From Methylobacter sp. KS41 (GTDB lineage Bacteria; Pseudomonadota; Gammaproteobacteria; Methylococcales; Methylomonadaceae), in the NCBI GenBank assembly GCA_002862125.1, contig PHSP01000003.1, forward strand, positions 496,001 to 560,000: DNA of 64,000 nt, written 5' to 3'. A program made the translations under genes and the position numbers. Below are positions 45,935-64,000 of the stretch, in pieces. The notes under the pieces were generated by a model that did no database searches, had not been told where the DNA came from, and was given only the letters and a program-made list of their open reading frames with translations. Every line of letters begins with the position of its first letter. Within the stretch, counting starts at the first letter, position 1.

Positions 45935-47122
45935 ATGAACAATACACTATCAAATGATATTATAGAGCATTTCAATGAAAGAACATTTGGATTCAGTGAA
46001 AATGAAAGAATAATAACTAATGAATATGATATTGCCAGTAGAATACCTCGTATTGAATCTATGGTTAAAAAAATTATAAATTCAGAAGGAGAGTTATTTT
46101 ACAAAGAAGAATCAAAGGATGGCAGAGTAAAGTTAGGTTGTATATACAATCAGCTTTTGTACAATATCGAAGTTTATTTTAAATATAACTTGAGTCCACT
46201 ACATGATAGAGAATTTTCAAAGTCACATTTTGCAAATGAAATTATCGAAACTTTTTCTCAACATCAATTTAATCCTTATGTTTCATTATTTATTAATATT
46301 TTGAATGAGGTGGTAATTTGCAAATTCGACACTAATTTAAAAACTAACTCTATAGATTACGAAGAAAAGTTAATCAAAAAAATAGAAGTATTAAATAAAT
46401 TTATTGAGCGAATTAGAACTGAAGGAAAAAGCAAAGAATTTAAAAGAATTATAAACAATTTTAAACGCCAAGTAGACAAAAACACCAAGAGCGTTATTGA
46501 TTACATTAATCACTTGTTTACGATAAACTCAAGATTACTTTCATTACGTTTAGACTTTAGATATAACAAAGATAATAATTCAAATTCGCTTATGACAAAA
46601 GAAGAGGTATTCCAACAGTATTTGAAGTTAAAAAAGGATCGTGAACAATTATTTAATGTTAATAAATCCAATAGACTTCTTGAACATATGGTTGGATATG
46701 TTTGGAAAATGGAATATACCCGACTCACTGGATGGCATTGTCATACTATTATTTTTTTTGATGGTTCTAAAGTTAGACGCGATTGCGGTCTTGGCATGTT
46801 AATTGGAGAATTTTGGAAAAAAACAATTACTGAAGGTAAAGGTTTATATTTCAATTGCAATGATCTAAAGTATAAAAAAAGTTTTGAGGAACAAGGAACT
46901 CTCGGCATTGGTATGATTAATCACGACGATCATAATCTCAGAAAAAATTTAGAGAAAGTTGCTGAATATTTGACTAAACCAGATTATTACGCAAGGGTAG
47001 TTGTTAAAGAAAATGGGAGAACATTTGGTAGAGGTGAAATTATAAAAAATCCTAAAGTACTTCAACGTGGTAGGCCTAGAAAATGTTCAACAGATTACCT
47101 TCATAGTCATTTCAACGCATGA
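45935..47122 (+). CDS. Inovirus Gp2 / YagK-YfjJ-like replication protein
   Basis: A 395-residue, AT-rich gene. The C-terminal third contains YVWKMEYTRLTGWHCHTIIF followed by FDGSKVRRDCGLGMLIGEFW, and later KNLEKVAEYLTKPDYYARVV. This fits the YagK/YfjJ C-terminal domain, also annotated as inovirus-type Gp2, found in filamentous-phage relatives and phage satellites. The H-x-H (WHCH) recalls the metal-binding HUH motif of rolling-circle replication proteins, though I cannot confirm the catalytic tyrosine. Its composition and position next to the tRNA-His fragment mark it as part of an integrated element. Confidence 0.65.
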   Translation: MNNTLSNDIIEHFNERTFGFSENERIITNEYDIASRIPRIESMVKKIINSEGELFYKEESKDGRVKLGCIYNQLLYNIEVYFKYNLSPLHDREFSKSHFANEIIETFSQHQFNPYVSLFINILNEVVICKFDTNLKTNSIDYEEKLIKKIEVLNKFIERIRTEGKSKEFKRIINNFKRQVDKNTKSVIDYINHLFTINSRLLSLRLDFRYNKDNNSNSLMTKEEVFQQYLKLKKDREQLFNVNKSNRLLEHMVGYVWKMEYTRLTGWHCHTIIFFDGSKVRRDCGLGMLIGEFWKKTITEGKGLYFNCNDLKYKKSFEEQGTLGIGMINHDDHNLRKNLEKVAEYLTKPDYYARVVVKENGRTFGRGEIIKNPKVLQRGRPRKCSTDYLHSHFNA

Positions 47123-47834: not shown

Positions 47835-48429
47835 CCCCGGCTTAGCCGGGGAGACTCTCATAGGTTTTACCGATGCGGTAGTTTTTCTTATTTTTAAATT
47901 TCGACCAAGAAATTTGAAGGAAAAGAAAATATGAAAGACTATAAGAGTTTGTCGCATACGCGATGGGATTGTAAATACCACATTGTATTTATTCCGAAGA
48001 AAAGGAAGAAAGTCATTTATGGCGGCTTGAGAAAATATTTGGGTGAGATTCTGCATGAGCTGGCGAAGCAAAAGGGCATTGAAATATTGGAAGGGCATTT
48101 GATGAGAGACCACGTTCATATGTGTTTGAGTATCCCTCCCAAAATAGCGGTATCGAGTGTAGTTGGCTATTTGAAAGGGAAGAGTGCAATAGCCATTGCG
48201 AGGAAATTCAAGGGAAGACAAAGAAACTTCAATGGCGAGCACTTTTGGGCGAGAGGATATTTTGTTTCAACGGTAGGGCTGGATGAATTTGTAGTGAGAG
48301 AGTACATTCGCCATCAAGAAAGCCAAGATGAATTTTACGAGCAATCAAGTTGGATATGACAGGCGGCTTGGCCGCAATAAGAGCCCTTTTGAGGGCGTAA
48401 CCCAATAAACCTCCGGCTATGCCGGAGGT
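47835..48429 (+). mobile_element. IS200/IS605-type insertion sequence
   Basis: A short transposon with a single Y1 transposase gene and, as expected for this group, subterminal hairpins in place of inverted repeats. The left hairpin is CCCCGGCT/AGCCGGGG at 47835-47851, and the right hairpin CCTCCGGC/GCCGGAGG at 48411-48429. The exact ends lie a few bases outside these hairpins. It sits at the edge of an IS4 remnant. Confidence 0.85.
47931..48359 (+). CDS. tnpA: IS200-type Y1 transposase TnpA
   Basis: A 142-residue single-strand DNA transposase. The HUH motif is HLMRDHVHMCLSIPPK and the catalytic tyrosine is Tyr125 in VREYIRHQE. The opening YKSLSHTRWDCKYHIVFIPK is typical of IS200 TnpA. The length is normal and there is no accessory tnpB gene, so this is the IS200 subtype. 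GGAAAAGAAA precedes the ATG. Confidence 0.95.
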   Translation: MKDYKSLSHTRWDCKYHIVFIPKKRKKVIYGGLRKYLGEILHELAKQKGIEILEGHLMRDHVHMCLSIPPKIAVSSVVGYLKGKSAIAIARKFKGRQRNFNGEHFWARGYFVSTVGLDEFVVREYIRHQESQDEFYEQSSWI

Positions 48430-48904
48430 GACTTAATTGGTTTCGTCGTAATGACATTGGTGTCCACTTTATTTTTTTAGTAAAAATTCGATGCTGAATA
48501 GTACACTGAGTAATTTAAAGTTTTTTCTAACGCATTATTGTATTAGGTGTATACCTGATGACGTAAAGTTAAGCATTTGTGGTAAGTGTGTCGAAATATG
48601 CCCATCTTAACTCTCGAACCTAAAATAACAGTTGTCTCGTTAACTTAACAACAACAGCTGTATTATTACAGGGGGATCATGGCTTATACTTAAATGATAT
48701 GTAGGGCTTTTTTTATTAGTAGCTCGCCCGTCTTTAAATAACTCGCTGGTATCGCCTTAAAATGACTATTATTTTTCATAGCTTACACATTTCTTATTAA
48801 TACTTCGCGTTCAGCTGCAGCTGTTTTTTTTAAAACTTATGGCTTTGCTTTATAGATAGGATTAAAGCCTAGTAAATAGCAGGATCCAATAGACGTAGTT
48901 TCCT
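48430..48904. other. Intergenic region upstream of the defence operon
   Basis: About 475 bases of relatively AT-rich DNA with no recognised gene. The promoter of the helicase operon should lie here. No clear operator or hairpin was identified. Confidence 0.45.
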
Positions 48905-51900
48905 ATGAAAAATGTTTTCGATTTCCGTGACGAACTGGTTTCAGATTACAGCTCCTTCTCACGCAGCTTCACCCGCATTGCAGCCCTAGACATCCGTCAA
49001 GAAGTTGAACGTCAATACGATGCAGGGCGCTATTGGCCGGAAGCACTGATTCAAATAAACCCCAATTACCAGCGCAAAACGACAGTCCAGCAACTCGCTG
49101 AGCAGGGTATTCTGCATAAAAAATGTGCTGATATTTTTCAATTAGGCAAGCTGGAACATAACCTCCAGCCGTTACACCTTTACACGCACCAACTGCAAGC
49201 CATAGCAAAAGCACAATCTGGTCAAAGCTATGTTGTAACGACCGGTACTGGTTCGGGTAAGTCGCTGTCTTTCTTCATTCCGGTAATCGACAAAATACTT
49301 CAAGATAAAGCAAATGATGGAATTGCCAAAACGCGAGCCATTGTCATTTACCCTATGAACGCGCTGGCGAACAGTCAGCTTGAGGAATTAAATAAATTTT
49401 TGTACGGCTATGATGACGCAGAACGGCCATTCAGTGTTGCTCGTTACACTGGCCAGGAATCCAAGGCGGAACGTGAAGCGATAGCCGAAAGCCCCCCGGA
49501 TATTTTGCTGACCAATTTCATGATGCTTGAGCTCATATTGACGCGTTATGAGAATACAGATCGCCGTGTTGTCGAGCATTGTACAGGGCTCAATTTTATA
49601 ATCCTGGACGAACTGCATACCTATAGAGGGCGTCAAGGTGCCGATGTTTCCTTGTTGGTTCGCCGATTACGTGAACGCTTGCACGCCGAACAAATGATTT
49701 GTATTGGTACCTCCGCAACCATGTCGAGCACTGGCAGCAAAGATGACCAGATGAAAACGGTAGCCGAAGTTTCCAGCAAGTTATTTGGCACCTTAGTCTC
49801 TGCCAACGACATTATCCGTGAAACGCTTGAGCGTGTTACTGACCCTTCTAAGGATGTTACCGCCATTCGGCCACTGCTATTGGAATCACTTGCCAGAACG
49901 TCCTTTAAATGGTCAACCTTTGAAGACTTCCAAAGCGATCCGCTCGCCATTTGGGTGGAATTGAATCTGGGTATTGAGTTACCAGTTGATAGCGAACCTG
50001 TTCGAGCAAAACCCATCAGTTTATCAGAAGCAGCCGATCGATTAGTTCAAGATGCTTCCTGCACTTTGGAAATTGCAAAAGCGGGATTGCAAAAATTCCT
50101 TATAGCAGCCCAGCACGATGTAACAACTCCGCAAGGTCAACCACCCTTTGCATTTAAGCTGCATCAATTTATTAGCGGCCCCGGCAAAGTTCATGCAACA
50201 CTGGAGGCGCAAGGTACCCGGCATATTACCTTGGATGCGCAACGTTTTGCGCCAGGAAGGCAAACAGAATCCGTACTCTTATACCCTACCCATTTCTGCC
50301 GGGAATGTGGGCAGGAATATCATCCGGTTTGGCGTGAAGAAAGTAGCAGCATCCATTTTAAGCCACGGGAAATTGATGATATTAGTGCCGATGAAAATGA
50401 GGAAGCCCGGTTTGGATTTTTATGTCCAAGCAATAACAGTCAGCAATTTCATGGGAACATAGAAGACCTTCCTGAAATCTGGCTTGACCTTAATAAAGCG
50501 GTACCCAAAGTAAAAAGTACCTATAAGAAAGCAGTGCCCATTGCTACGCAAGTTGATCCGCAAGGTGTCGAAAGGCAAGGTGAACATTATTGGTTTATAC
50601 CGGGTAAATTCCGCTTTTGTCTGAACTGCGCCTATGTGCATGAAGCGCATGGCAAAGACATTAACCGGTTATCCAGTCTTTCTGGTGAAGGGCGTTCATC
50701 AGCAACAACCATGCTTACACTGAGCGCCTTACGCCAGCTATTTGTTGAAACCGATATTCCAAAAGGAATACCTGACCCCAGAAAATTGCTGGGGTTTACC
50801 GACAATCGTCAGGATGCTGCCTTACAAGCTGGACACTTTAATGATTTCGTGTTTTTGCTTACTTTGCGAGCTGGCTTGATAGCCGCCTTGGAAAATAAAG
50901 GGGGCATTCTGACCGAAGAACATCTGGCAGACGAAGTGTTCAATGCGCTCGGTTTCAATCAATTAGACCCGGCAACATTAGCAGAGTATCTACGTACGCC
51001 CAAGTTAATGGGGCTTGCCCGGCAAGAAGCGCAACGAACCTTGCGCTTTGTATTGGGTTATCGGTTACTGAGAGATTTGCGTAGAGGTTGGCGCTTTAAT
51101 AATCCCAATCTCGATCAACTCAATCTATTGGTTATTAACTACCGCGAATTACACGAGTTTTGTGCCGATGAATCGGCATTTGGCCAACCTGGTACGTTAT
51201 TACGCAAGCTGGACACAACCGGGCGAGAAGCATTCTGCAGGTTGGTGTTTGATGAAATGCGGCGAGCGCTTTGTTTGGAAAGCCGTTATCTGGACCCAGT
51301 TGACCAGGAAAAAACCAAAAACACCGCGCATCAATATCTCAATGAACGCTGGGCATTTACGTCAGATGAGGCTTTGGCGACTTCGAAGTATCTGATTCTA
51401 GGCAAGCGTCCCGAATATAAAGGCAAACCTCGAAATGACCTAGTCAGTGGCGGCCCGCGTTCACGCATCATCAAACAGCTGAAAAGAGCAGCATTCTGGA
51501 AGGAGTCGCCATTTGCTGGACAGGTTTCCAGTTGGAAGGAACAGGAACTCGTTGAAGCGATGGAAGCTCTGCTTAATGTGGCTGTGAATTACGGGTATGT
51601 TCATAAGCACTCTATCGATAATTCAATTCTGGGATGGCGATTAAATGCAGCTGCTATGGATTGGTGCTTGCCGCTCGTTGATGATAATGAAGATCAACGT
51701 AAACCCAATGCCTTTTTCCGCCAGCTTTATCTAGTGATGGCGCAAATGATTAAACTACCTGCGCATCCCTTGTTTGAGTTTGAGGCTCACGAACATACTG
51801 CCCAGGTTGATGCTGCTCGTCGACAGCTGCTTGAACAGCGCTTTCGCTATACCGACAAAGATCGTCAGGACTGGGCGGATAATCCCGCGCATGAAGCGCC

Positions 51901-54199
51901 CCTGGAACGCCTGCCCGTGATGTTTTGTTCACCCACTATGGAGCTGGGTGTTGATATTTCCGCACTCAATACCGTTTATTTGCGCAATGTTCCACCCACC
52001 CCAGCCAATTATTCACAACGCAGCGGCCGGGCAGGCCGATCAGGTCAGCAAGCCTTAGTTATCACTTATTGCGCCGCGCAAAGTCCTCATGATCAATGGT
52101 TTTTCCATAATGCCGACAAAATGGTTTACGGCATCGTCAAACCACCTACCTTGGATTTGGCAAACCGTGATTTGGTGGAAAGTCATTTACACGCAGTATG
52201 GCTGGCCTGTTGCGAAGTGGAACTGGAAAACAGTATCGCTCCGCTGGTTGATCTGGAAAAGCCGGAAAAACCAATAAAGCCTGAACTGCTTGCACGTCTA
52301 AGCGACAAAGATGCTCTAGTCAAAGCCAGAAATGCAGCCACGCGCGTTGTCGCGCAATTGCAAACCGAGCTGAAGGAGACTAACTGGTTCAATAACGACT
52401 ATGTTGAGCAGGTTATTAATGCCTCGCCCAAAGCGTTTACAAATGCCCTGGAACGCTGGCGAACGTTATTTGATGCAACCCTCAAGCAAATGGATATGGC
52501 TGACAGCATCGTCAAAAGCCATACCGCGTCGCACAGCGAACGTGAAAATGCCCGTCGGCGCTACGGCGATGCCGCCCGTCAATATACCGTGTTATTAAAA
52601 ACAGGCAATACGCAGAATTCCGATTTTTATACCTATCGTTATTTGGCAAGCCAAGGCTTTTTACCGGGCTACAACTTTCCGCGATTACCACTTATGGCCT
52701 GGATTCCTGCACGCGGAGGCGTAAATAGCAGTGGCAAGGATGATACTGGCAGCATGGTGAGTCGCCCACGTTTTCTGGCACTGTCAGAATTCGGTCCGCG
52801 CAGCCTGATATACCACGAAGGCCAAATGTATCGTGTGGTTCGTGCCAAACTCAATGTAGGCTCGGCGGATCATGTTTCAGGAAACAGTACCTTAGGGACG
52901 GTGTCGGCGCGTATCTGTAGTCAATGTGGTTATGGTCATCTGGGCGAAGAGCATGAATCAGAACCACTGGCAAACTGCTGCGAGAATTGCGGCGCATTGC
53001 TCACCGAGCATGATTGGGTCAATCAACTGTACCGTATTGAAACCGTTGAGACTATTGCAGTGGAACGCATTTCAATCAACGATGAAGAACGTCAACGCCA
53101 AGGCTTTGAATTACAAACCACCTATCGATTTCTGCCTGGCCCGGATGGCGTGGTGCAAAAGCATAAAGCGCATGTAGTCCATCATGATGAAACGTTCTGT
53201 GCCATAACCTACTCGCCGGCAGCACGAATTTGGCGTATCAACCGGGGTTGGCGGCGGCGCAAAGATAAAAATCAGCTAGGCTTTTACATCAATCCGATTA
53301 CAGGTGTTTGGAGCAAGCAGGATGATCCGAATAAGGACGAGGGGGCTGAAAACGATGAGGCATTACTCGATAAAGTACCCAATCAACGCATTGTTCCGTT
53401 TGTAGAAGATCATCGTAATGTTCTGATCCTTACCCCGGTAAAGCCCTTGTCTCTAATAGCCATGGCAACTTTACAGGCAGCACTTAAGCGTGGTATAGAA
53501 CAGACTTTCCAAATTGAGGAGTCAGAACTGGTTGTTGAATCTTTGCCAAACGCTGATAATCGCCAGGCGTTATTGTTTTATGAAGCAGCAGAAGGTGGGG
53601 CTGGTGTTCTGACTCGCTTAGCAACGGAACCAACCAGTCTGGCTATAGTGGCTAGCGCTGCGCTTCGCGTGATGCATTTTGACACCCTGAAAAACGTTAC
53701 TAGCGTTGAGGAACTCGAACAGCATGATCAACGTAATGCTGAGGGTGAACGTATTTGTGAAGCAGGTTGTTACCAATGCTTGCTGTCCTATTTCAATCAG
53801 CCTGACCATGACCATATCGACAGACGCAACCGGGATGCTTTGCAATTGTTAATCGCACTCGTCAATGCCAATGTCACTTCGATCAATGACGAATATCAAC
53901 CGTTTAAACAGCAAGCCACTGAAAATGGGTTGCTTGGTGAGTGGCTTACCGCGTTGCAGGCAAGACAGCTAAGGCAACCTGATGCAATCGAAGTTTCCAT
54001 CAATCATGGACAAGCCATTGCAGCCGGACAATATAAAGGCCAGCGCATTCTGGTATTTTTAGAAGCCTTGGCAAACGATACAAAAACCCAATTGGAAGAT
54101 AAAGGTTGGCAAGTGCTGGATTTTTCAAACCCCAACCAATGGCCTACTTTATTTGAACAATACGCCGAGTTACTCGGTAAACAAGAGAGCAATTCATGA
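48905..54199 (+). CDS. Large DEAD/DEAH-box helicase with DUF1998 domain
   Basis: A 1764-residue superfamily 2 helicase. Walker A is TTGTGSGKS near residue 112, the Walker B box is DELH at 235-238, motif III is GTSAT, and the second RecA domain ends with TMELGVDIS and QRSGRAGRSG near residue 1038. Three Cys pairs look like zinc ribbons (CRECG near 466, CLNC near 577, CSQCG with CCENCG near 1337-1362). The DUF1998 region is at about 1558-1642 (AAEGGAGVL, CEAGCYQCLLSY). Helicase-DUF1998 proteins occur in Druantia (DruE), and as the separate DrmA and DrmB subunits of DISARM. The gene is first in an operon: its stop overlaps the next ATG. No good ribosome binding site was found at the ATG. Confidence 0.85.
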   Translation: MKNVFDFRDELVSDYSSFSRSFTRIAALDIRQEVERQYDAGRYWPEALIQINPNYQRKTTVQQLAEQGILHKKCADIFQLGKLEHNLQPLHLYTHQLQAIAKAQSGQSYVVTTGTGSGKSLSFFIPVIDKILQDKANDGIAKTRAIVIYPMNALANSQLEELNKFLYGYDDAERPFSVARYTGQESKAEREAIAESPPDILLTNFMMLELILTRYENTDRRVVEHCTGLNFIILDELHTYRGRQGADVSLLVRRLRERLHAEQMICIGTSATMSSTGSKDDQMKTVAEVSSKLFGTLVSANDIIRETLERVTDPSKDVTAIRPLLLESLARTSFKWSTFEDFQSDPLAIWVELNLGIELPVDSEPVRAKPISLSEAADRLVQDASCTLEIAKAGLQKFLIAAQHDVTTPQGQPPFAFKLHQFISGPGKVHATLEAQGTRHITLDAQRFAPGRQTESVLLYPTHFCRECGQEYHPVWREESSSIHFKPREIDDISADENEEARFGFLCPSNNSQQFHGNIEDLPEIWLDLNKAVPKVKSTYKKAVPIATQVDPQGVERQGEHYWFIPGKFRFCLNCAYVHEAHGKDINRLSSLSGEGRSSATTMLTLSALRQLFVETDIPKGIPDPRKLLGFTDNRQDAALQAGHFNDFVFLLTLRAGLIAALENKGGILTEEHLADEVFNALGFNQLDPATLAEYLRTPKLMGLARQEAQRTLRFVLGYRLLRDLRRGWRFNNPNLDQLNLLVINYRELHEFCADESAFGQPGTLLRKLDTTGREAFCRLVFDEMRRALCLESRYLDPVDQEKTKNTAHQYLNERWAFTSDEALATSKYLILGKRPEYKGKPRNDLVSGGPRSRIIKQLKRAAFWKESPFAGQVSSWKEQELVEAMEALLNVAVNYGYVHKHSIDNSILGWRLNAAAMDWCLPLVDDNEDQRKPNAFFRQLYLVMAQMIKLPAHPLFEFEAHEHTAQVDAARRQLLEQRFRYTDKDRQDWADNPAHEAPLERLPVMFCSPTMELGVDISALNTVYLRNVPPTPANYSQRSGRAGRSGQQALVITYCAAQSPHDQWFFHNADKMVYGIVKPPTLDLANRDLVESHLHAVWLACCEVELENSIAPLVDLEKPEKPIKPELLARLSDKDALVKARNAATRVVAQLQTELKETNWFNNDYVEQVINASPKAFTNALERWRTLFDATLKQMDMADSIVKSHTASHSERENARRRYGDAARQYTVLLKTGNTQNSDFYTYRYLASQGFLPGYNFPRLPLMAWIPARGGVNSSGKDDTGSMVSRPRFLALSEFGPRSLIYHEGQMYRVVRAKLNVGSADHVSGNSTLGTVSARICSQCGYGHLGEEHESEPLANCCENCGALLTEHDWVNQLYRIETVETIAVERISINDEERQRQGFELQTTYRFLPGPDGVVQKHKAHVVHHDETFCAITYSPAARIWRINRGWRRRKDKNQLGFYINPITGVWSKQDDPNKDEGAENDEALLDKVPNQRIVPFVEDHRNVLILTPVKPLSLIAMATLQAALKRGIEQTFQIEESELVVESLPNADNRQALLFYEAAEGGAGVLTRLATEPTSLAIVASAALRVMHFDTLKNVTSVEELEQHDQRNAEGERICEAGCYQCLLSYFNQPDHDHIDRRNRDALQLLIALVNANVTSINDEYQPFKQQATENGLLGEWLTALQARQLRQPDAIEVSINHGQAIAAGQYKGQRILVFLEALANDTKTQLEDKGWQVLDFSNPNQWPTLFEQYAELLGKQESNS

Positions 54200-56955
54200 A
54201 CATGCCAGTCCACGATTTTACTATCGGCAATCTGGTTCGCGCACGAGGCCGTGAGTGGGTTGTGCAACCCGATTCAAAGCAAGATTGGTTGCGCTTGCGG
54301 CCCTTGGGCGGTGCTGACAATGACATCATAGCGTTGATTCCCGAGCTGGAGTTCCAGCCAGTCGAGCCCGCTACATTTCCTTGGCCTAACCCCGAAAAAC
54401 CCGGCAATCATGCCTCTGCCTTGCTTTTGCGAGATGCACTGCGCCTAAAATTACGGGCTGGTGGTGGTCCATTCAGATCTTTTGGTAACATCGCTGTAGA
54501 ACCCAGAGCCTACCAGTTGGTGCCATTACTCATGGCATTGCGACTAACCACGGTGCGACTATTGATTGCCGATGACGTGGGTGTCGGTAAAACCATTGAA
54601 GCTGGCCTAATTGTTCGCGAATTGATGGACCGCGGTGAAATCAGCCGATTAGCCGTACTCTGTCCACCGCATCTAGTTGAACAATGGCAAGGTGAACTGG
54701 AGGAGCGTTTCAACCTCCAGGCCGTTGTTTTAACTTCAGCCAGCGCCAGCCGCATCGAGCGCGATTTGCCGCATGGTGTTAGTTTGTTTGATCATTATCC
54801 CTGTATCGTGGTGAGTCTTGACTACATCAAAAGCGAACGTCATCGTGAGCATTTTCTGGCGATTGCTCCGGAGTGTGTAATTGTCGATGAAGCCCATACC
54901 TGCGCGAGCAGCGGTCAAGGTAAACAATTGCGATTTGAGTTGTTGCAACGCCTGGTGGCTAATGAAGAGCGGCACATGCTGTTGCTAACGGCTACCCCGC
55001 ATTCCGGTGATGAAGCCGCTTTTTATAATCTTCTGTCGCTGCTTAACCCCGCGTTTGCAGCGTTGCAAAACCGCACTTCTGCCAGCGATCCGTTGCGTCT
55101 TGAATTGGCTCGCCATTTCGTACAACGACGCCGCATAGATATTGACGAATGGCATGATACACGGGGATTTCCTAAACGCATGACTACAGAATTGACTTAC
55201 GAGCTCAGCGGTGCGTGGGGACAGTTTTTTGATGACGTGCAAAGCTATTGCCGCGAACTCGCTGAATCAGTTGAACAATCGGCAAACGGCAATACCCGAT
55301 TGATTTGGTATGCCACTTTAGCATTATTACGCTGTGTAGCCTCATCACCAGCGGCTGCCGTTAAAGCGTTGAATACCCGGCTTGAAGGCACATTGGATAA
55401 CGAGACGTGTCTGACCGATAACCGGCTCTACGACGGTCAAGCGGATGATTTGGATACTAACGACCTGGAACCGCCTGCGCAATTGCAGGATGCAGCCCGG
55501 TTACAGAATTTGATTGCTCAGGCAGGAAGACTGAGCGGTAAAGCCGGTGATCCCAAGCTGGCATTATTAATTTCCCACCTCAAAATCCTGCTAAAAGAAG
55601 GTTTCCAGACGGTCATCTTCTGCCGCTATATCGCAACTGCCCATTATGTTGCCGAACACTTACGTGCCCAGTTTCCAACCGTGACCGTGGAAGCCGTGAC
55701 TGGCGAATACACCCCGGTGGAACGCGAGCAGCGGGTACAATCAATGGATGACGCCAATCAGCGTTTGCTAGTCGCTACCGACTGTTTGTCGGAAGGCATC
55801 AACTTGCAGCATTTATTTACCGCAGTGGTGCATTACGATTTGGCATGGAATCCAACTCGCCATGAACAACGCGAAGGCCGGGTTGACCGCTTTGGACAGC
55901 AGGCCCCCGAAGTGCGCTGCACCATGCTCTACGGTCAGGATAACCCGGTAGATGGCTTTGTATTAAACGTAATCCTCAGAAAAGCTGACGTTATTCGCAA
56001 AGAGCTTGGGGTACTGGTACCCATGCCTGAGGATGAGTCACGCATTAATCAAGCACTTGTCAAAGCAGCCTTGATGAAACGAAGCGAACGAAACCTTAGC
56101 TTATTTGATTTCGTTGAGCAGGAAGAAATCCTCAAACCTCTGCAAGCCAAATGGCACGATGCCATGGAAAAAGCCAAGGCCAATCGCACCGTGTTTGCGC
56201 AGCGCCGTATTAAACCGGAAGAAGTCATGCCGGAATGGCAAAAACAGCAAATCGCATTAGGCTCTGAAGCGGATGTTAAACGCTTTGTGCAAACCGCCTG
56301 CGCTCGACTCAATGCGCCACTGGAACCTTTTAAAGGTAACCGTTTCAAATTATTGCCCCAGCATTTCCCTGAAACTTTAAAGCTCAGGCTAGCCGATGAA
56401 GGCATTGAAAAGCCCTTGACTATCGATTTTTCACAATTACACCGCAGCCACCCAGTCGTTAGTTTGCTGGCCGAACACTTACTGGAAGAAGCCTTGCTTG
56501 GCGAAAAGCCGCTGGCAGCCCGTTGCGCAACAACTGTCACCGGATCAGTCGAGGTGGTAACCACCTTATATCTGCTCCGTCTGCGCCATCAACTCAGTTA
56601 TGTTCGTCGTAGACAACCCTATCAACTGATGGCTGAAGAAACCGTCACCCTTGCAGTTCGAGGCCGGACCCAACCGGAATGGCTCAGCGAAGAAACTGCC
56701 GGCGCACTACTGGAATGCCAACCCAGCGGCAATTTACCGCTCGAAGTCATGCAACGCGAAATCAAAACAGCATTGGAATTTATCCAGGCCCACCCGGATC
56801 GAGTGGAAGCGCTCGCGGGGCAGCGAGCGGAAGCCTTACTGGTTGATCATCGCCGGGTACGCGAAGCGGCCCGCGATGTCGGGCAATACAGTGTCACTCC
56901 TTGTTTGCCGGTGGATGTTATCGGTATTTACGTTTTACTTCCCGACGCATTGTAA
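54196..56955 (+). CDS. SNF2-family helicase/ATPase, DrmD-like
   Basis: A 919-residue SNF2-type ATPase. Walker A is DDVGVGKT at 126-133, the DEAH box is DEAH at 231-234, motif III is LLLTATPHSGDE, and the C-terminal RecA domain has LLVATDCLSEGINLQHLF and RHEQREGRVDRFGQ (about 555-568). A long C-terminal region follows. The layout is that of the HepA/RapA-like helicases in defence loci, including DrmD of class 1 DISARM. It overlaps the preceding gene by four bases (ATGA) and lies 10 bases before the methyltransferase gene, so it is translationally coupled within the operon. The SNF2 class is secure; DrmD is an inference from context. Confidence 0.88.
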   Translation: MNMPVHDFTIGNLVRARGREWVVQPDSKQDWLRLRPLGGADNDIIALIPELEFQPVEPATFPWPNPEKPGNHASALLLRDALRLKLRAGGGPFRSFGNIAVEPRAYQLVPLLMALRLTTVRLLIADDVGVGKTIEAGLIVRELMDRGEISRLAVLCPPHLVEQWQGELEERFNLQAVVLTSASASRIERDLPHGVSLFDHYPCIVVSLDYIKSERHREHFLAIAPECVIVDEAHTCASSGQGKQLRFELLQRLVANEERHMLLLTATPHSGDEAAFYNLLSLLNPAFAALQNRTSASDPLRLELARHFVQRRRIDIDEWHDTRGFPKRMTTELTYELSGAWGQFFDDVQSYCRELAESVEQSANGNTRLIWYATLALLRCVASSPAAAVKALNTRLEGTLDNETCLTDNRLYDGQADDLDTNDLEPPAQLQDAARLQNLIAQAGRLSGKAGDPKLALLISHLKILLKEGFQTVIFCRYIATAHYVAEHLRAQFPTVTVEAVTGEYTPVEREQRVQSMDDANQRLLVATDCLSEGINLQHLFTAVVHYDLAWNPTRHEQREGRVDRFGQQAPEVRCTMLYGQDNPVDGFVLNVILRKADVIRKELGVLVPMPEDESRINQALVKAALMKRSERNLSLFDFVEQEEILKPLQAKWHDAMEKAKANRTVFAQRRIKPEEVMPEWQKQQIALGSEADVKRFVQTACARLNAPLEPFKGNRFKLLPQHFPETLKLRLADEGIEKPLTIDFSQLHRSHPVVSLLAEHLLEEALLGEKPLAARCATTVTGSVEVVTTLYLLRLRHQLSYVRRRQPYQLMAEETVTLAVRGRTQPEWLSEETAGALLECQPSGNLPLEVMQREIKTALEFIQAHPDRVEALAGQRAEALLVDHRRVREAARDVGQYSVTPCLPVDVIGIYVLLPDAL

Positions 56956-56965
56956 AGGCTTAATC

Positions 56966-59900
56966 ATGAAACGCGTCAGAAGAAACCATACTAACGCCCT
57001 CAATTTGCCAACCTTGCACCTGGAAGGTGGCTTATTCCTGCCCGATCAACTGGAAAATGCGGCATTGGGTAAAGCCAGTTATCAAAAGGAGGCTGATTAT
57101 CAAATTCCCACTGGCCTTAAACTAAAAGACGAATACAGCCGGGCGTTTCAAATCGCTTCTGCCCAATGGAAACATTTTGCTCCCAATCTGGAACGGCAGG
57201 ATGTCGATGTTGCCGATGTCACCATCAAGTTTGTCCACGACCTGCTGCGCGATGCATTGGGTTACAGCGGTTTTCAACTGATAAGCGGTATCAGCATCGG
57301 CGAACGTCAATACCCCATCACAGCATTAGCAGGGCAAACCATTCCGGTAGTAATTGCCCCACACTCTCTTGGGCTGGATGAAGCCGACCCACAATTTGCT
57401 GTTGCCGGCAGTGGCGCTCGTAAGAAAAGTCCGTTTCAACTGGCTCAGGAATTTCTCAATGCGAGTGCTCAACATCTTTGGGCACTGGTCAGCAATGGTA
57501 AACAAATCCGCCTGTTACGCGATGCCGCCACCCTGACACGGCCCAGCTATTTAGAGTTTGACTTGCAAGATATGTTAGGTGGCTTACGCTTTGCCGAATT
57601 TGAAATGGCCTGGCGTTTACTGCACGCTAGCCGATCATTACTCCCCTCTCCCTCTGGGAGAGAGGATGAGGGAGAGGTAGCGAATATCTGGGAAAACTGG
57701 CGCAGCGAAGGCCAGCGCGAAGGCACCCGAGTCCGCGACGGCTTGCGTCAAGGTGTTACCGATGCCTTGTTAACACTGGGCACTGGATTTATCCAACATC
57801 CCGCCAATGAAACCTTGCGCCGCGATCTGCACGAAGGCCGCTTGAGTAAGGATGCCTATTTTCAACAACTGCTACGCCTGGTTTACCGGCTGATATTTTT
57901 GTTTACCGTTGAAGATCGCGGGATATTACACACTGATGATAACGACAGGAAAACCATCGCTGCCCGTAAAGCCTATGCCGAAGGCTATGCCATGGCCCGG
58001 CTACGTGACCGTTGTTTGCGTCGCCGAGCCCGTGACGGTTTCGACGACTTGTGGACGGGCTTGCGGATTGTGTTTCGTGGCCTTAGCAACGGCGAACCAC
58101 GCTTGGCCTTACCGGCCTTGGGTGGATTGTTTGCCGACACTCAATGTCCGGCGCTGGACACATCCACCCTCAGCAACGCCAATTTGCTGGCAGTGATGCA
58201 ACAAATGCGCTGGTCCAATCTTAGCGGTCATCTCACTCCCGTCGATTACCGCAATATGGGACCTGAAGAACTGGGCTCGGTATATGAAAGCTTGCTGGAA
58301 CTGGTGCCGGAAATCGACCTGCCTGCCCGACAGTTCGGTTTTGTCGGTTTGACCTCATTGGGCAGCACCCAAGGCAATGCCCGCAAAACCAGTGGCAGCT
58401 ATTACACAGCAGATAGTCTGGTGCAGGAACTCATTAAATCTGCCCTCGACCCAGTGATAGAAGACCGGTTGTCGAATAATCCCGCCAACCCCACCGCAGC
58501 CTTGCTCAGCATCAAAGTCATCGATACCGCCTGCGGCAGTGGTCACTTCTTGCTCGCCGCTGCCCGGCGCTTGGGCGAACGGCTGGCAGCCTTGCAGGCG
58601 CCAGATGGCGCAGTCAAGCCACATGACTATCGCCATGCCTTGCGTAAAGTCATTAGCCACTGTATTTTCGGCATCGATCGCAACCCGATGGCGTTAGAAC
58701 TGGCTCGAATGGCGTTATGGCTGGAAGGTTTTGAAGAAGGTGTAGCGCTGTCGTTCCTCGATCACCATTTACAATGCGGCGATGCCTTGATCGGCTTGAC
58801 CGACCTCAAACAACTGCAACACGGCATCCCCGACGCCGCCTTCAAACCTTTGTCCGGCGATGACAAGATGGTATGCAGGGACATCGCTAAAGCCAACAAA
58901 GAATGGCTTAAAGCTTTTGCTAAACATAAAACTAACCGCAATCTCGACATAGCGCTCGACGACGCCGATGGGCTTTCTAGGCTACAAGCTTTAGAAGCGC
59001 TGCCTGATACAACTACCGCAGAAATTGCCGGCAAGGAATCCGCCTATCAAGTATTCATGTCTCATGAAAAACAAAGCAGGTTAGGTAATGCTGCTAACCT
59101 GCTAGTAGGTGCTTTTTTAATCCCCAAAACCGATGCAGAGGCTCAACTCACCACCCCTACCAGTCAAAATCTCTATTTGGAGTTGTTCACCAAGCAAACA
59201 GCCGATGAATTGAACTTTGTGCATCAGCGTCAACGTCTAGCGATGGCACGGCAGGCCTGTGAAGAGGCTCGCGTGCTGCACTGGCCTTTGGCGTTTCCGC
59301 AAGTTTTTGCGCAAGGAGGTTTCGATTGCGTATTGGGCAACCCGCCATGGGAGCGCATCAAGCTGCAAGAAGAGGAATTTTTTGCCACGCGTAACCGTTT
59401 TGTCGCCGAAGCCAAAAACAAGTCCGAACGCGGGCAACGTATTGACTGGCTGGCACATGGCATGTTGGCCCGCAATCTGTATCCAGAACTGGAACATCCA
59501 CCCCTGGAATGTGAAGCCGAACAACGAGTATATCAAGACTTTATCAGTGCCCGCCGTACCGCCGAAGCAGCCAGTGTTTTTGCCCATGTTAAAGACAAGG
59601 ATGGCGGACGTTATCCCTTGACCGGTGTCGGTGACGTCAATACTTATGCATTATTTGCTGAAACTATCATCCAGATTACCGCCAAAACCGGGCGAGCTGG
59701 GTTTATTGTGCCTACCGGCATTGCCACCGACGATTCCACCAAAGCCTATTTTGGCCATATTGCTCAGAGTGGGCAACTAGCCAGTCTGTATGATTTTGAA
59801 AATCGTGAAAAAATTTTTGCGGCAGTCGATAGCCGTATGAAATTCAGCCTGCTGACGTTGGGGCATGCCGAACAAGCTGAATTCGCTTTCTTTTTGACCA

Positions 59901-61918
59901 ACACCCAGCAACTCGGCGACTCGCGTCGCCGTTTTGCGTTGAGTGCCGATGACTTTAGTCGCATCAATCCCAACACGCTGACCTGTCCGGTCTTCCGCTC
60001 GCGTATGGATGCCGAACTGACTCGCAAAATCTACCAGCGCGTGCCGGTTCTGATTCGTGAGGCACGGGGCAAAGAGCCAGAACAGAATTCGTGGGGGATT
60101 CGTTTTATGACGATGTTTCACATGTCCAACGATAGCCACTTGTTTCAAGACGGCCCTGCACCGGACAGATTACCGCTGTACGAGGCGAAAATGATCCACC
60201 AGTTCGACCATCGCTGGGCAAGCTACCGGGTTGAAGACGGCAAAGACACAATAGGCGATGTAGCGCTTGCAGATAAACAAACCCCGGATTTTTGTGTCAT
60301 CCCGCGTTACTGGGTTTCTGCTCGGAGCGTATACTTACGAACTGCAAAGTTACCCAGCGGGCTGCTCAAGGCATTGGAAGAGAATTGTACACAATTAATT
60401 ATTTTAGGGATTGCCCACCTATTATTTGGCCACTGGTTGCTGCAAGTCGATTCAAACGATCCAGAGCTGATAGTTTCTAACTTGTTTTCCAGATGGAAAG
60501 ATTTTGTGGATTTTCATCCATTTGCGAGAAAAATCCCTCCGACTAGTTTAGGCCTATACGGCAACAATCCTGGTTGCTTCAAACCTCTGAATGATAGCTA
60601 TCTGCCCGCGGAGGGACTTGATTCAATCAAATGCACAGACCGTGAAAGTACTGCCTGGTATATGGCTGATGAAAAATCTGTCTACGCCTACTTGGATTTT
60701 GCATCTCAGTATGAGATAGACATAGCCACATTCCCTTCGCTTAAAGATGACGAAGACGTGTTGAATTATTCAGAATTACTTTTGGAGCAAGCTACGCCAA
60801 AATGGTTTATGGGATTTCGAGATATTTGCCGGGCAACTGACGAGCGTACGGTGATTGCAAGTGTGATTCCAAGAGCGGGTGTGGGCAATAAAGCACCTTT
60901 GTTTTTTTTCGACGAAAATATTTCTAAGTTACGAATTGCCGCACTTGTCGGTAATTTGTCGGCCTTATGTTTTGATTTTGCAGCAAGACAGAAAATTGGC
61001 GGCACCACACTGAATTACTTTCTTTTTAAACAGCTCCCCGTTCTAACACCAGATTTCTACAGTGAAGTAGACTTCACTTTCATCGTCCCCCGTGTCCTGG
61101 AACTGACCTACACCGCCCACGACCTGCAACCCTGGGCGCAAGATTTGGGTTACGATGGCCCACCCTTTCCGTTTGACCCCGATCGCCGAGCCATACTCCG
61201 CGCCGAACTCGACGCCTGGTACGCCCGTGCTTACGGTTTAAACCGTGACGAACTGCGTTACATCCTCGACCCCGCCGACATCATGGGCGACGAGTACCCC
61301 TCCGAAGCCTTCCGCGTGTTAAAAAACAACGAACTACGCAATTTCGGCGAATACCGTACGGCTAGGTTGGTTCTGCGGGAGTTTGATCGCATGGCTTTAG
61401 CTGATGCTGAAAATAAACCATTTGAGAGCCTGCTTGTACCTCCGCCGGGTCAAAAAATACCTGTTGCCTACTCCTCGCTAGGCGTAATCCGTGATGATGG
61501 GGATGCCCGATTGGCGGGCTTGATGTTCTCAATGATCAAAGAGTCGAGTTCGTTGCCGCGCAAGCAATTGGATTTAGCTTTAACACTTGCCCAGATGTCT
61601 GATAGCGCATCCAGTCAATTAGCTAGTAAGGCTACTAATGTGCTCGATAATTACCGCAACATGGGGGTGTTTGACCCGGAGCGGATTGGGCGTTCGCAAA
61701 CCTTGCTACGCTATTTTGAAGAGGCTGGAGTTATTTGTTTTGAACAAAAAGGAGCTGAGATTACTGCCCTACCAACTACGGTTATACCCGATGGGTTAAT
61801 TTTTGAACATGATATGAAAGAGATAACGCTTGCGTTATTGAGTGTTGCACAAACAAGACTTCAACAATCGTCTTCCCTGAAAGATGAAGATGCAGATACT
61901 CAAGTGAAGTATGCATAG
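56966..61918 (+). CDS. Eco57I-like adenine-specific DNA methyltransferase, DrmMI-like
   Basis: A 1650-residue protein. The frame is open from 56651, but the ATG at 56966 (MKRVRRNHTNALNLPTLHLE) follows the previous stop and has an AAAGG site. The gamma-class N6-adenine methyltransferase domain has GSYYTADSLVQELI, motif I VIDTACGSGHFLL from about 518, IDRNPMALELARMALWLEG and the catalytic NPPW at 792-795. The N-terminal part (LLRDALGY, NASAQHLWALVSNGKQIRLL) resembles the front domain of type IIG and Eco57I enzymes, but no complete PD-(D/E)XK nuclease motif was seen. The C-terminal part should recognise the DNA target. A dispersed palindromic repeat is inserted in frame at 57642-57680. It most likely marks self DNA for the two helicases. 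Confidence 0.85.
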   Translation: MKRVRRNHTNALNLPTLHLEGGLFLPDQLENAALGKASYQKEADYQIPTGLKLKDEYSRAFQIASAQWKHFAPNLERQDVDVADVTIKFVHDLLRDALGYSGFQLISGISIGERQYPITALAGQTIPVVIAPHSLGLDEADPQFAVAGSGARKKSPFQLAQEFLNASAQHLWALVSNGKQIRLLRDAATLTRPSYLEFDLQDMLGGLRFAEFEMAWRLLHASRSLLPSPSGREDEGEVANIWENWRSEGQREGTRVRDGLRQGVTDALLTLGTGFIQHPANETLRRDLHEGRLSKDAYFQQLLRLVYRLIFLFTVEDRGILHTDDNDRKTIAARKAYAEGYAMARLRDRCLRRRARDGFDDLWTGLRIVFRGLSNGEPRLALPALGGLFADTQCPALDTSTLSNANLLAVMQQMRWSNLSGHLTPVDYRNMGPEELGSVYESLLELVPEIDLPARQFGFVGLTSLGSTQGNARKTSGSYYTADSLVQELIKSALDPVIEDRLSNNPANPTAALLSIKVIDTACGSGHFLLAAARRLGERLAALQAPDGAVKPHDYRHALRKVISHCIFGIDRNPMALELARMALWLEGFEEGVALSFLDHHLQCGDALIGLTDLKQLQHGIPDAAFKPLSGDDKMVCRDIAKANKEWLKAFAKHKTNRNLDIALDDADGLSRLQALEALPDTTTAEIAGKESAYQVFMSHEKQSRLGNAANLLVGAFLIPKTDAEAQLTTPTSQNLYLELFTKQTADELNFVHQRQRLAMARQACEEARVLHWPLAFPQVFAQGGFDCVLGNPPWERIKLQEEEFFATRNRFVAEAKNKSERGQRIDWLAHGMLARNLYPELEHPPLECEAEQRVYQDFISARRTAEAASVFAHVKDKDGGRYPLTGVGDVNTYALFAETIIQITAKTGRAGFIVPTGIATDDSTKAYFGHIAQSGQLASLYDFENREKIFAAVDSRMKFSLLTLGHAEQAEFAFFLTNTQQLGDSRRRFALSADDFSRINPNTLTCPVFRSRMDAELTRKIYQRVPVLIREARGKEPEQNSWGIRFMTMFHMSNDSHLFQDGPAPDRLPLYEAKMIHQFDHRWASYRVEDGKDTIGDVALADKQTPDFCVIPRYWVSARSVYLRTAKLPSGLLKALEENCTQLIILGIAHLLFGHWLLQVDSNDPELIVSNLFSRWKDFVDFHPFARKIPPTSLGLYGNNPGCFKPLNDSYLPAEGLDSIKCTDRESTAWYMADEKSVYAYLDFASQYEIDIATFPSLKDDEDVLNYSELLLEQATPKWFMGFRDICRATDERTVIASVIPRAGVGNKAPLFFFDENISKLRIAALVGNLSALCFDFAARQKIGGTTLNYFLFKQLPVLTPDFYSEVDFTFIVPRVLELTYTAHDLQPWAQDLGYDGPPFPFDPDRRAILRAELDAWYARAYGLNRDELRYILDPADIMGDEYPSEAFRVLKNNELRNFGEYRTARLVLREFDRMALADAENKPFESLLVPPPGQKIPVAYSSLGVIRDDGDARLAGLMFSMIKESSSLPRKQLDLALTLAQMSDSASSQLASKATNVLDNYRNMGVFDPERIGRSQTLLRYFEEAGVICFEQKGAEITALPTTVIPDGLIFEHDMKEITLALLSVAQTRLQQSSSLKDEDADTQVKYA
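57642..57680. repeat. Dispersed palindromic repeat inside the methyltransferase gene
   Basis: TCCCCTCTCCCTCTGGGAGA and GAGGATGAGGGAGAGG form a copy of the CTCTCCCTCTGGGAGAG-type genomic repeat also seen at 40326-40356. It is read through in frame as LLPSPSGREDEGEV, at about residues 226-239 of the enzyme, and does not disturb the frame. Confidence 0.7.
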
Positions 61919-61930
61919 CGAGAATTGATT

Positions 61931-63937
61931 ATGGAAAACTTGCAAGAAAGCCTTTCCACACAAAAATCATCGCCTCATCTCTGGATTGAGCGCTTGGCGA
62001 TATTTAGTCAGGCCGATGCCGATCAATGTATTCGTTCGGTTGCGTTTCGGCGGGGATTAAATGTGATTTGGGCACATGAGCCAGCCGCCGGCAGTGCCTA
62101 TACTGGCATCCATGCCGCTGGTCACGGCGTAGGCAAGACATCGCTCTGTTTACTAATGCGCTTTTGCCTTGGCGACAATGCCAAATCAGTTAATGAACTT
62201 AGGGAAGAAGTCTGTGGCGAGTTTCCGCATGGCGGGGTTGGTATGGTGGTACACCTCGCAAATCAAACCTTCGCTGTTTTTCGTTTGTTTAATGCTTACA
62301 AAGACGGTTTCGTTGCAAACGGCAGCAACATTGAATCTCTTTTTAACGATAACACAAGCCAGTCTTTTAAGGATTTCGAGACACAATTGGCGGAGGTATT
62401 CTTATCCAGGATTCATCCCCGAATCATTCCTGAAACGGCACAAGTTATTGAATGGCGCCATATTCTTGCTTGGATGACCCGCGATCAAGGTTCACGGTTC
62501 AAGTCATTTTTCGCATGGCGGGAGGGCGAAGGCACCGGTTTACAGCGATCACGGCAAGACCCGCCTATTATTATGCGTGCCGTGCTGGGCTTGATGGATC
62601 AACAAGAATCCGGGTTATTAACAGACATACGCGCTCTTGAACGCAACCTGGAAACCGTTCAGCAAGATACTGAACGACTTCAACAGGAACCCGTACTGAT
62701 ACGCCGTCGTATTGAGTCTGAGCTGAGAACCTGGTTAGAGCTGCCAGATGATCTGCCAATGCACTCTGATGATTTATTTAAGGAGTCCGTTGAAGATAAA
62801 GTCAATGAGGCCAGGAAAATAGCTGAAACGCAGTTAAATGCAGCCGATACCGCGCTCGATAAGGCTAACGAGGCATTATTTAAACTTCGGGCAGAGCAGC
62901 AAGAGTTGGGGCGACGCTATCAACAGGCTGATGATGAATACCAGTTGGCAAAGGCCGCCCATCTTAAGGATGAAGAGTCGGTCAAGAAAATTAACCAACA
63001 ACGCAGTAAACTTCAAGGACTGGTTGGCCCTTGTGAACATGGCAATATTTTGTTTAGCGAGTGTGCTTATATTAAGGACGAAATCCAAAAACTTCAGGCG
63101 ATCCACTTGAAAGATCACCGAGATCAAAGCACGCTCTCGCGTTCTGAAAAAGAATGGGCTGCCCGCGCTGTAGCGGCGTTGAAGTCTCGTGATGCACTTG
63201 AATATCCGCGTCAAAAATTAAACAACCAAGTGTCAGTAAAAGAGCAAGAATGCAGATCACTAAAGATTAAGCGAGATTCTGTCATGCTTACCGTTGACCG
63301 TGGTCGTCGTTTATTGGGTGAATTGGATAGATGGGAACGGTTATCCGGTTCAACCGAGGAGGCGGAAACAATTCGACAGTTGATTTCAAGACGGGAGGCG
63401 ATCTCTAGTGACATCGATAATAAACGTTTGCAAGTTCAGATGCTCAAACAGAAAAATTCTTATCGCAAAAAGATCTTGGCTGACATCATCAATACACTTA
63501 CTCGGGAACTTTTATCTGAAGAGGCATTTGGTAATTTTGAATTCCAGGATGAAAGCCGTCCTTTCCAATTGTCGGTTCGCGGTGGAGAAGCTTATCGGGT
63601 TCTGGAAGTCCTGCTTGGCGACTTGGTATGTTTGTTGGATTCAGTAAATTCCGGTAGTGCTTTTCCAGGCTTATTAGTCCATGACTGTCCCAGAGAAGCT
63701 GATATGAGCTCTGGTTTATACGAGAATTTTTTGCTTCTGGTGCAAAAGATAGAACAAGAAATCTTTGGCGGGGAGGCTCCATTCCAATACATCGTAACCA
63801 CTACGACGCCGCCACCAGCGTCAATTCAGTGTTCGCCTTACCTTCGGGTAACGCTTGATCCATGCACTGATGAGGGATTATTGTTTCGGCGGCGTTTTAA
63901 CATATCATTGCAAAGCGAATATCTTCAAGGGATATAG
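61931..63937 (+). CDS. SMC/RecN-like coiled-coil P-loop ATPase of the defence operon
   Basis: A 668-residue ATPase. Walker A is AAGHGVGKTSLCLLMRFCLG with the P-loop at 64-70. A Walker B-like strand, FPGLLVHDCPREADM, lies near residue 580. The region between about 225 and 530 is predominantly coiled coil (long runs of E, Q, K, L). It contains a cysteine pair, GPCEHGNILFSECAY near 367-379, at the place where Rad50-type proteins have their hook. The N-terminal IERLAIFSQADADQCIRSVA and FRRGLNVIWA resemble the DUF2326/ABC-three-component type of ATPase. The start at 61931 follows the methyltransferase stop by 12 bases. It is not a component of the DISARM or Druantia systems as I know them. Confidence 0.75.
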   Translation: MENLQESLSTQKSSPHLWIERLAIFSQADADQCIRSVAFRRGLNVIWAHEPAAGSAYTGIHAAGHGVGKTSLCLLMRFCLGDNAKSVNELREEVCGEFPHGGVGMVVHLANQTFAVFRLFNAYKDGFVANGSNIESLFNDNTSQSFKDFETQLAEVFLSRIHPRIIPETAQVIEWRHILAWMTRDQGSRFKSFFAWREGEGTGLQRSRQDPPIIMRAVLGLMDQQESGLLTDIRALERNLETVQQDTERLQQEPVLIRRRIESELRTWLELPDDLPMHSDDLFKESVEDKVNEARKIAETQLNAADTALDKANEALFKLRAEQQELGRRYQQADDEYQLAKAAHLKDEESVKKINQQRSKLQGLVGPCEHGNILFSECAYIKDEIQKLQAIHLKDHRDQSTLSRSEKEWAARAVAALKSRDALEYPRQKLNNQVSVKEQECRSLKIKRDSVMLTVDRGRRLLGELDRWERLSGSTEEAETIRQLISRREAISSDIDNKRLQVQMLKQKNSYRKKILADIINTLTRELLSEEAFGNFEFQDESRPFQLSVRGGEAYRVLEVLLGDLVCLLDSVNSGSAFPGLLVHDCPREADMSSGLYENFLLLVQKIEQEIFGGEAPFQYIVTTTTPPPASIQCSPYLRVTLDPCTDEGLLFRRRFNISLQSEYLQGI

Positions 63938-63945
63938 GAAAAATT

Positions 63946-64000
63946 ATGAACGTTGTAAATCTAACTTACGTCCTACCACATGTGATTCGTCTTGCTATTA
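63946..64000 (+). CDS. Unrecognised gene start, truncated at the window edge
   Basis: An ATG with a good AGGAAAAA ribosome binding site eight bases after the ATPase stop. The 18 visible codons read MNVVNLTYVLPHVIRLAI, too few to assign. The spacing makes it the fifth gene of the operon. Confidence 0.6.
   Translation, partial: MNVVNLTYVLPHVIRLAI

Follow-up and report, generated by a model that had tools for sequence, protein, structure and literature searches.

A predicted ARMADA Type I variant operon in Methylobacter sp. KS41 with a methyltransferase-linked SMC/Lamassu-like ATPase and a separate HNH-family gene

Genes of the operon

The window, by which we mean the whole 64,000-nucleotide stretch of Methylobacter sp. 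KS41 DNA analysed here, ends in four large, closely spaced genes that encode a YprA-family helicase, an SNF2 helicase, an adenine DNA methyltransferase (MTase) and a coiled-coil ATPase (Table 1). The families named in the initial annotation (DUF1998 helicase, SNF2 helicase, Eco57I-like MTase, coiled-coil ATPase) agree with the gene positions and with the Pfam domains found, and for the ATPase, which has no Pfam match, with the PADLOC profile LmuB. The YprA and SNF2 genes overlap by 4 bases, and the gaps that follow are 10 bases (SNF2 helicase to MTase), 12 bases (MTase to ATPase) and 8 bases (ATPase to the next ATG). All four reading frames are open, and a motif check found the catalytic motifs of these genes unbroken: TGTGSGK and DELH, Walker A GVGKT and DEAH of the SNF2 helicase, DTACGSG and NPPW of the MTase, and Walker A GHGVGKT of the ATPase. 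A promoter and terminator scan of the operon performed no better than on shuffled sequences.

Five coupled genes had been proposed. Four stand, with the spacing claimed, but the fifth is a stub, since the ORF at 63946 ends after 43 codons, and a full gene at this position was rejected. We followed the operon in L003, which belongs to the same genome and continues past the window. It is an HNH-family protein encoded past the window end, and not the stub, that is the conserved fifth partner; the VapBC-like pair is an insertion between the ATPase and HNH genes of the operon. DrmC had been suggested as the missing piece past position 64000, but the partner there is the HNH-family (HNH_2) protein, and no DrmC or phospholipase-D gene is present among the ORFs directly following the operon.

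Residues ~1126-1278 of the MTase are replaced between close relatives, with flanks that are 67-78% identical (L154), and comparison by tblastn with L154, L156 and L153 indicates that they probably form the target-recognition region.

Table 1. Features of the operon and of its continuation past the window. Window-equivalent positions are L003 positions plus 61999.
Feature	Position	Strand	Description
YprA-family (DUF1998/MZB) SF2 helicase	48905..54199	+	1764 aa; Pfam DEAD, Helicase_C, MZB
Vsr-type nuclease domain remnant, YprA C-terminus	53822..54196	+	PDFxY...DGxxH motif lost
BrxHII/RapA-like SNF2 helicase	54196..56955	+	919 aa; Pfam SNF2-rel_dom, Helicase_C
PglX/Eco57I-type adenine DNA MTase	56966..61918	+	1650 aa; Pfam Eco57I, N6_Mtase
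Probable target-recognition (specificity) region of MTase	60341..60799	+	residues ~1126-1278; tblastn vs L154, L156, L153
MTase C-terminal adaptor extension	61406..61915	+	residues 1481-1650, ~170 residues; predicted winged helix and long C-terminal helix
SMC/Rad50-like coiled-coil ATPase, LmuB-like	61931..63937	+	668 aa; PADLOC LmuB
Stub ORF	from 63946 to window-equivalent 64077 (L003:1947-2078)	+	43 codons; reads past the window
VapBC-like pair	window-equivalent 64088-64728 (L003:2089-2729)		between ATPase and HNH gene
HNH_2 / HNH-family gene	window-equivalent 64864-65631		255 aa; past window end

Relation to ARMADA Type I

The PADLOC 2023 profiles yielded no matching complete system, and the best matches were split among DruE, DpdE/DrmD, DrmMI and LmuB. 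The YprA protein matched DruE profiles at 1e-90, the SNF2 helicase matched DpdE best (2.5e-204) and also DrmD (2e-87), and the MTase matched DrmMI (1.4e-67); YprA aside, no Dru profile was among the best matches of the operon's proteins. The initial annotation had taken the locus for a mixture of DISARM-like and Druantia-like parts. The SNF2-MTase combination, the single-chain DUF1998 helicase and the lack of a complete system in PADLOC 2023 all bear this out, but the core has since been named ARMADA Type I.

In the accessible parts of the preprint by Bell et al. (2025; PMC12458937), ARMADA Type I has the order YprA, BrxHII-like helicase, PglX-like MTase. The order of the window genes, as given by ORF calls, PADLOC and Pfam, is the same. 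These parts of the preprint set the type by clade together with gene set, and describe ARMADA YprA proteins as typically ending in a predicted active Vsr nuclease; the phage tests reported there concern Type II only, in which all four genes are required for protection and the defence is non-abortive. In a careful maximum likelihood tree, for which E. coli ATCC 8739 supplied ARMADA II and Druantia III controls, the window YprA grouped with the Type I-order loci with support of 100/100. Loci that have the published gene order stand for Type I in this tree, in place of the reference protein of the preprint itself. The nearest protein was that of Acidithiobacillus caldus. The window YprA stood apart from both controls, to which its BLAST similarity is limited to ~235 helicase residues.

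Judged from its sequence, the operon belongs to the ARMADA Type I family, in a variant form. With that family it shares the order of YprA, BrxHII-like SNF2 helicase and PglX-like MTase, the YprA clade, and the helicase and DUF1998 regions in a single chain. It differs in the lost Vsr motif, because of which we file it as a variant, in an added LmuB-like ATPase with an adaptor on the MTase, and in a separate HNH-family gene. The main text of PMC12458937, as distinct from its supplements, which may differ, does not mention such an ATPase (SMC, Lamassu or ABC-3C), and its accessible main-text sections contain no mention of the HNH gene. The phage-tested ARMADA Type II systems of E. coli (ATCC 8739, NCTC 12900) have the same three core families, but their YprA lies in a different clade and their order is SNF2, MTase, YprA and then a UvrD-type (GajB-like) helicase with a RelE domain, which is not that of the window.

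The ATPase and its methyltransferase adaptor

The ATPase matches the LmuB profile with E=1.5e-17, LmuB profiles are matched by 10 of 10 of its relatives too, and a search of PDB sequences with it returned only coiled-coil matches at chance level. The earlier statement that it belongs to neither DISARM nor Druantia holds, and it stays the novel part of the operon. A pair of cysteines lies in the middle of the coiled coil. In ABC ATPases the catalytic Glu directly follows the Walker B Asp. The window ATPase has Cys at this position (HDCPREAD), and across the alignment of its family the residue is Cys or Ser. A change from Glu to Gln at the corresponding position is general among LmuB proteins (PMC10586767). 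Because the catalytic position is altered in both, slow ATP hydrolysis is likely for the window-type ATPases and for LmuB alike.

The likeness to Lamassu/ABC-3C systems (LmuA-LmuC-LmuB) comprises the LmuB-like ATPase of ~660 residues, the small winged-helix partner, the zinc-hook-like Cys pair and the altered Walker B motif of the family. Unlike Lamassu, the window has no LmuA effector with a docking domain and no separate LmuC; its partner domain is part of the MTase chain. ABC ATPases that accompany restriction systems are known in general (PMC12839542, PMC10853773). As far as the accessible parts of the sources go, DndD-DndE of Dnd systems (PMC10853773) and PrrC/RloC (PMC2610378) are comparable cases of ABC/SMC-type ATPases attached to DNA-modification systems; DndE, however, has an RHH fold, unlike the window adaptor, and no anticodon-nuclease domain like that of PrrC/RloC was recognised in the window system.

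A scan of GTDB species identified 215 relatives of the ATPase. We surveyed the context of the best 80 of these, 73 of which have at least 1.5 kb of upstream sequence; the survey used the ATPase's own profile, and the counts describe ATPase relatives and not frequencies among ARMADA systems. ARMADA-I-type genes lie upstream in 57 of the 73 (45 with YprA within the available stretch). The others comprise seven DISARM-1 loci, two with a PLD-SNF2 helicase and an Eco57I MTase, one Type I and one Type III restriction locus, two with a weak MTase match only, and three of other kinds, and 70 of the 73 relatives sit in DNA-modification-type systems. A plasmid collection gave eight matches, seven of them directly 3' of an ARMADA-I MTase; at the eighth (L013) the features resolved are the extension's end, the ATPase behind it and an HNH gene. 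In most loci the start of the ATPase gene either overlaps the stop codon of the preceding gene or lies shortly behind it. Among the close relatives, some have no ATPase (e.g. L154, L155); it is therefore not essential to the core.

Presence of the ATPase is matched by a C-terminal extension on the upstream core subunit, found in 85 of 85 loci with the ATPase and in none of 18 without it. The MTase runs 99-615 residues (mostly 160-240) past its core where the ATPase is present and 4-34 residues where it is absent, and the two ranges do not overlap. The boundary can be placed by tblastn: L154, which has no ATPase, matches the window MTase (78% and 67%) up to residue 1476 and then ends, whereas L153 and L156, which have the ATPase, match it through residues 1642-1650. 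On an SNF2 tree of 75 loci the state of the ATPase changes ~13 times, and in each of the 11 supported tree-independent pairs the extension changes too (p=0.00098). What this shows is a sharply bounded unit that is inherited together, not physical contact; the ATPase gene and the extension are adjacent, so one exchange can carry both.

Homologous extensions occur on HsdS (L043), on a Type III Res subunit (L055) and on DrmMI (L036), and as a standalone 228-residue protein (L053). E-values within this cluster reach 1e-25, and a comparison of profiles links it to the cluster of the window's extension (hhalign E 6e-8, probability 95%); the remaining links between extension clusters are weaker than the window's. 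AlphaFold models the window extension as a winged helix followed by a long helix at the C-terminus (pLDDT 88), and its model for the other cluster has these elements in the same sequence (pLDDT 95). With the window model, the first Foldseek matches were LmuC and MukE at a non-significant E of 0.24, and with the second model generic winged helices were found and no LmuC. Identity with LmuC was accordingly not accepted and is kept as a lead only. The extension matched no PADLOC profile and no PDB sequence.

We lean, if cautiously, towards the view that the LmuB/SMC-like ATPase and the ~170-residue winged-helix adaptor form a portable cassette that has repeatedly joined DNA-modification defence systems not related to one another (ARMADA I, DISARM-1, Type I and Type III restriction, PLD-helicase/MTase), and would provide them with an SMC-based DNA sensor or clamp. 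This cassette is the part of chief interest. Whereas the three-gene core was known as ARMADA Type I, the tie between the ATPase and a putative MTase docking domain and the separate HNH gene are new here; in the accessible literature we found no description of the adaptor, or of its occurrence on subunits of ARMADA, DISARM and restriction systems, an earlier mention of the ATPase being possible in the ARMADA supplements.

Loss of the Vsr motif and the proposed mode of action

At the C-terminus of the window YprA the Vsr motif is lost, and the protein does not have the predicted active nuclease. We compared this motif in more than 75 relatives, in some of which (e.g. L019, L022, L050) it is unbroken. 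Among loci with enough sequence, the HNH gene is present in 33 of 36 with a lost motif versus 3 of 40 with an intact one; that is, 33 loci combine loss with HNH, 37 have an intact motif and no HNH, three (L025, L058, L032) carry both nucleases, and three have neither, namely L049, where the gene is broken, and L027 and L153, where a contig ends ~6 kb away. Mapped on the tree of 75 loci, the motif was lost only once, within one clade of 35 loci, so that the link between Vsr and HNH is not independently replicated, and a convergent swap of the two was rejected. Within the Vsr-lost clade the HNH gene persists although the ATPase is present in some loci and absent from others, which would fit an essential role for the HNH gene. 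In 39 of 39 aligned rows its product keeps the three HNH motif residues, His, Asn and Asp, with Asp and not His in last place throughout. The HNH-family protein is probably the cutter, as a predicted nuclease, and seems to stand in for the dead Vsr nuclease.

Adenine methylation marks self DNA, and YprA and SNF2 helicases act on DNA. We think it probable that the operon is a variant ARMADA Type I defence system, in which the known core is joined by an SMC/Lamassu-type ATPase docked on the MTase and by an HNH protein that replaces Vsr. The adenine MTase would mark self DNA and the two helicases would act on unmarked DNA. The ATPase, docked through the C-terminal winged-helix adaptor, may serve as an ATP-gated DNA clamp or sensor with slow hydrolysis, held at the MTase, and the HNH-family protein would take over from the lost Vsr domain and presumably make the cut. 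This reading builds on things observed, which are the gene order, the YprA clade, the pairing of adaptor and ATPase, the loss of the Vsr motif and the conserved HNH gene. It is weakened by the VapBC pair and stub that interrupt the operon ahead of the HNH gene, by the three loci with both nucleases, by the single event behind the Vsr loss, by the Asp in the last HNH position, by the lack of the ATPase in some close relatives and by the weak fold likeness to LmuC. Such a system would connect methylation-based restriction with the SMC-based sensing of Lamassu and Wadjet, two branches of immunity that are usually kept apart. The adaptor offers a direct handle for testing what the SMC part does, as loss of ~170 MTase residues should uncouple the ATPase and leave modification untouched. 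The Vsr-dead, HNH-bearing clade suggests, in turn, a way for a YprA defence system to outsource its nuclease.

Guard-like parts such as PrrC/RloC and PARIS stand beside restriction systems. The main rival, which we rate as unlikely though by no means negligible, is that the ATPase-adaptor cassette is a guard that has no part in DNA cutting by ARMADA and watches the MTase, and that a phage anti-restriction protein that disables the MTase triggers a backup response through the HNH-family protein, VapC or other effectors of the slot between the MTase and HNH genes. The cassette does sit on a core subunit, mostly for modification or specificity, of quite different systems, as would be expected for an often-attacked target; the slot holds HicAB, VapC, DUF3696-like ATPase or UvrD-like genes in relatives; and OLD-ABC guard modules have been described for BREX (PMC12839542). 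Several relatives (L014, L023, L129, L154), however, have the HNH gene but no ATPase, so that the former is not the dedicated effector of the latter, and no consistent alternative effector was seen beside the ATPase in the HNH-less loci, part of which were read gene by gene.

It is improbable that the ATPase and HNH genes are independent passengers that merely share an island with a cooperating three-gene core. The richness of the region in mobile elements (an IS200-type transposase upstream, VapBC and IS downstream) and the different slot contents of close relatives would agree with this; the strict co-occurrence of ATPase and MTase extension over the independent pairs, the tight junction of the ATPase with the upstream gene and the concentration of ATPase relatives in modification-type loci all speak against it. 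More improbable again is a decaying operon that no longer defends. Such decay could account for the stub, the inserted toxin-antitoxin genes, the lost Vsr motif and the broken genes of some relatives (L015, L163), but the four large genes are open with unbroken catalytic motifs, and the Vsr loss is common to a whole clade and is therefore old and tolerated, not local.

We give almost no credence to class 1 DISARM or Druantia, suggested by the DruE, DrmD and DrmMI profile matches and rejected on gene structure and the YprA tree, since helicase and DUF1998 form one 1764-residue chain where class 1 DISARM has separate DrmA and DrmB, DrmB and DruH are absent, as is DrmC among the ORFs directly following, YprA aligns with a DrmA over 127 residues only (E=0.009), and it separates from DruE on the tree. 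With class 1 DISARM the window shares the SNF2 helicase and the adenine MTase, and the same ATPase together with a fused extension is found in DISARM-1 loci such as L036 and L067. DISARM-1 loci with this SMC-like ATPase (L036, L062, L063, L067, L080) have the order DrmD-DrmMI-ATPase-...-DrmA-DrmB, with DrmC in some; in L036 a HEPN/RES protein follows the ATPase.

The operon had also been placed beside an integration site, which we could not support: the nearest tRNA is 43 kb away and only an IS200-type transposase gene lies near. This IS200/IS605-type Y1 transposase gene (47931-48359) is 550 bp upstream of the operon and has a hairpin-like end at ~48380-48435. Further upstream, 45935-47122 encodes a protein whose C-terminal domain is of the YagK/YfjJ type and which matches a replication-protein (ORF2/G2P) family below threshold; similar proteins occur on small integrated elements. 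A 636-residue protein (36552-38462) has, as read by eye, HEAT-like repeats and a C-terminal membrane stretch. Downstream, L003:5131-18400 is mobile-element-like, with a DDE transposase, a YqaJ recombinase, MoxR/VWA-like genes, a second transposase and RadC. In relatives (L154, L155, L163, L015, L020, L022) the slot between the MTase and HNH genes, or past the MTase, varies in content, with HicAB-like genes, a PIN toxin, a DUF3696-like ATPase, a UvrD-like helicase, McrBC or nothing, and in A. caldus (L014) another VapC pair lies between the SNF2 and MTase genes of an operon of the same kind.
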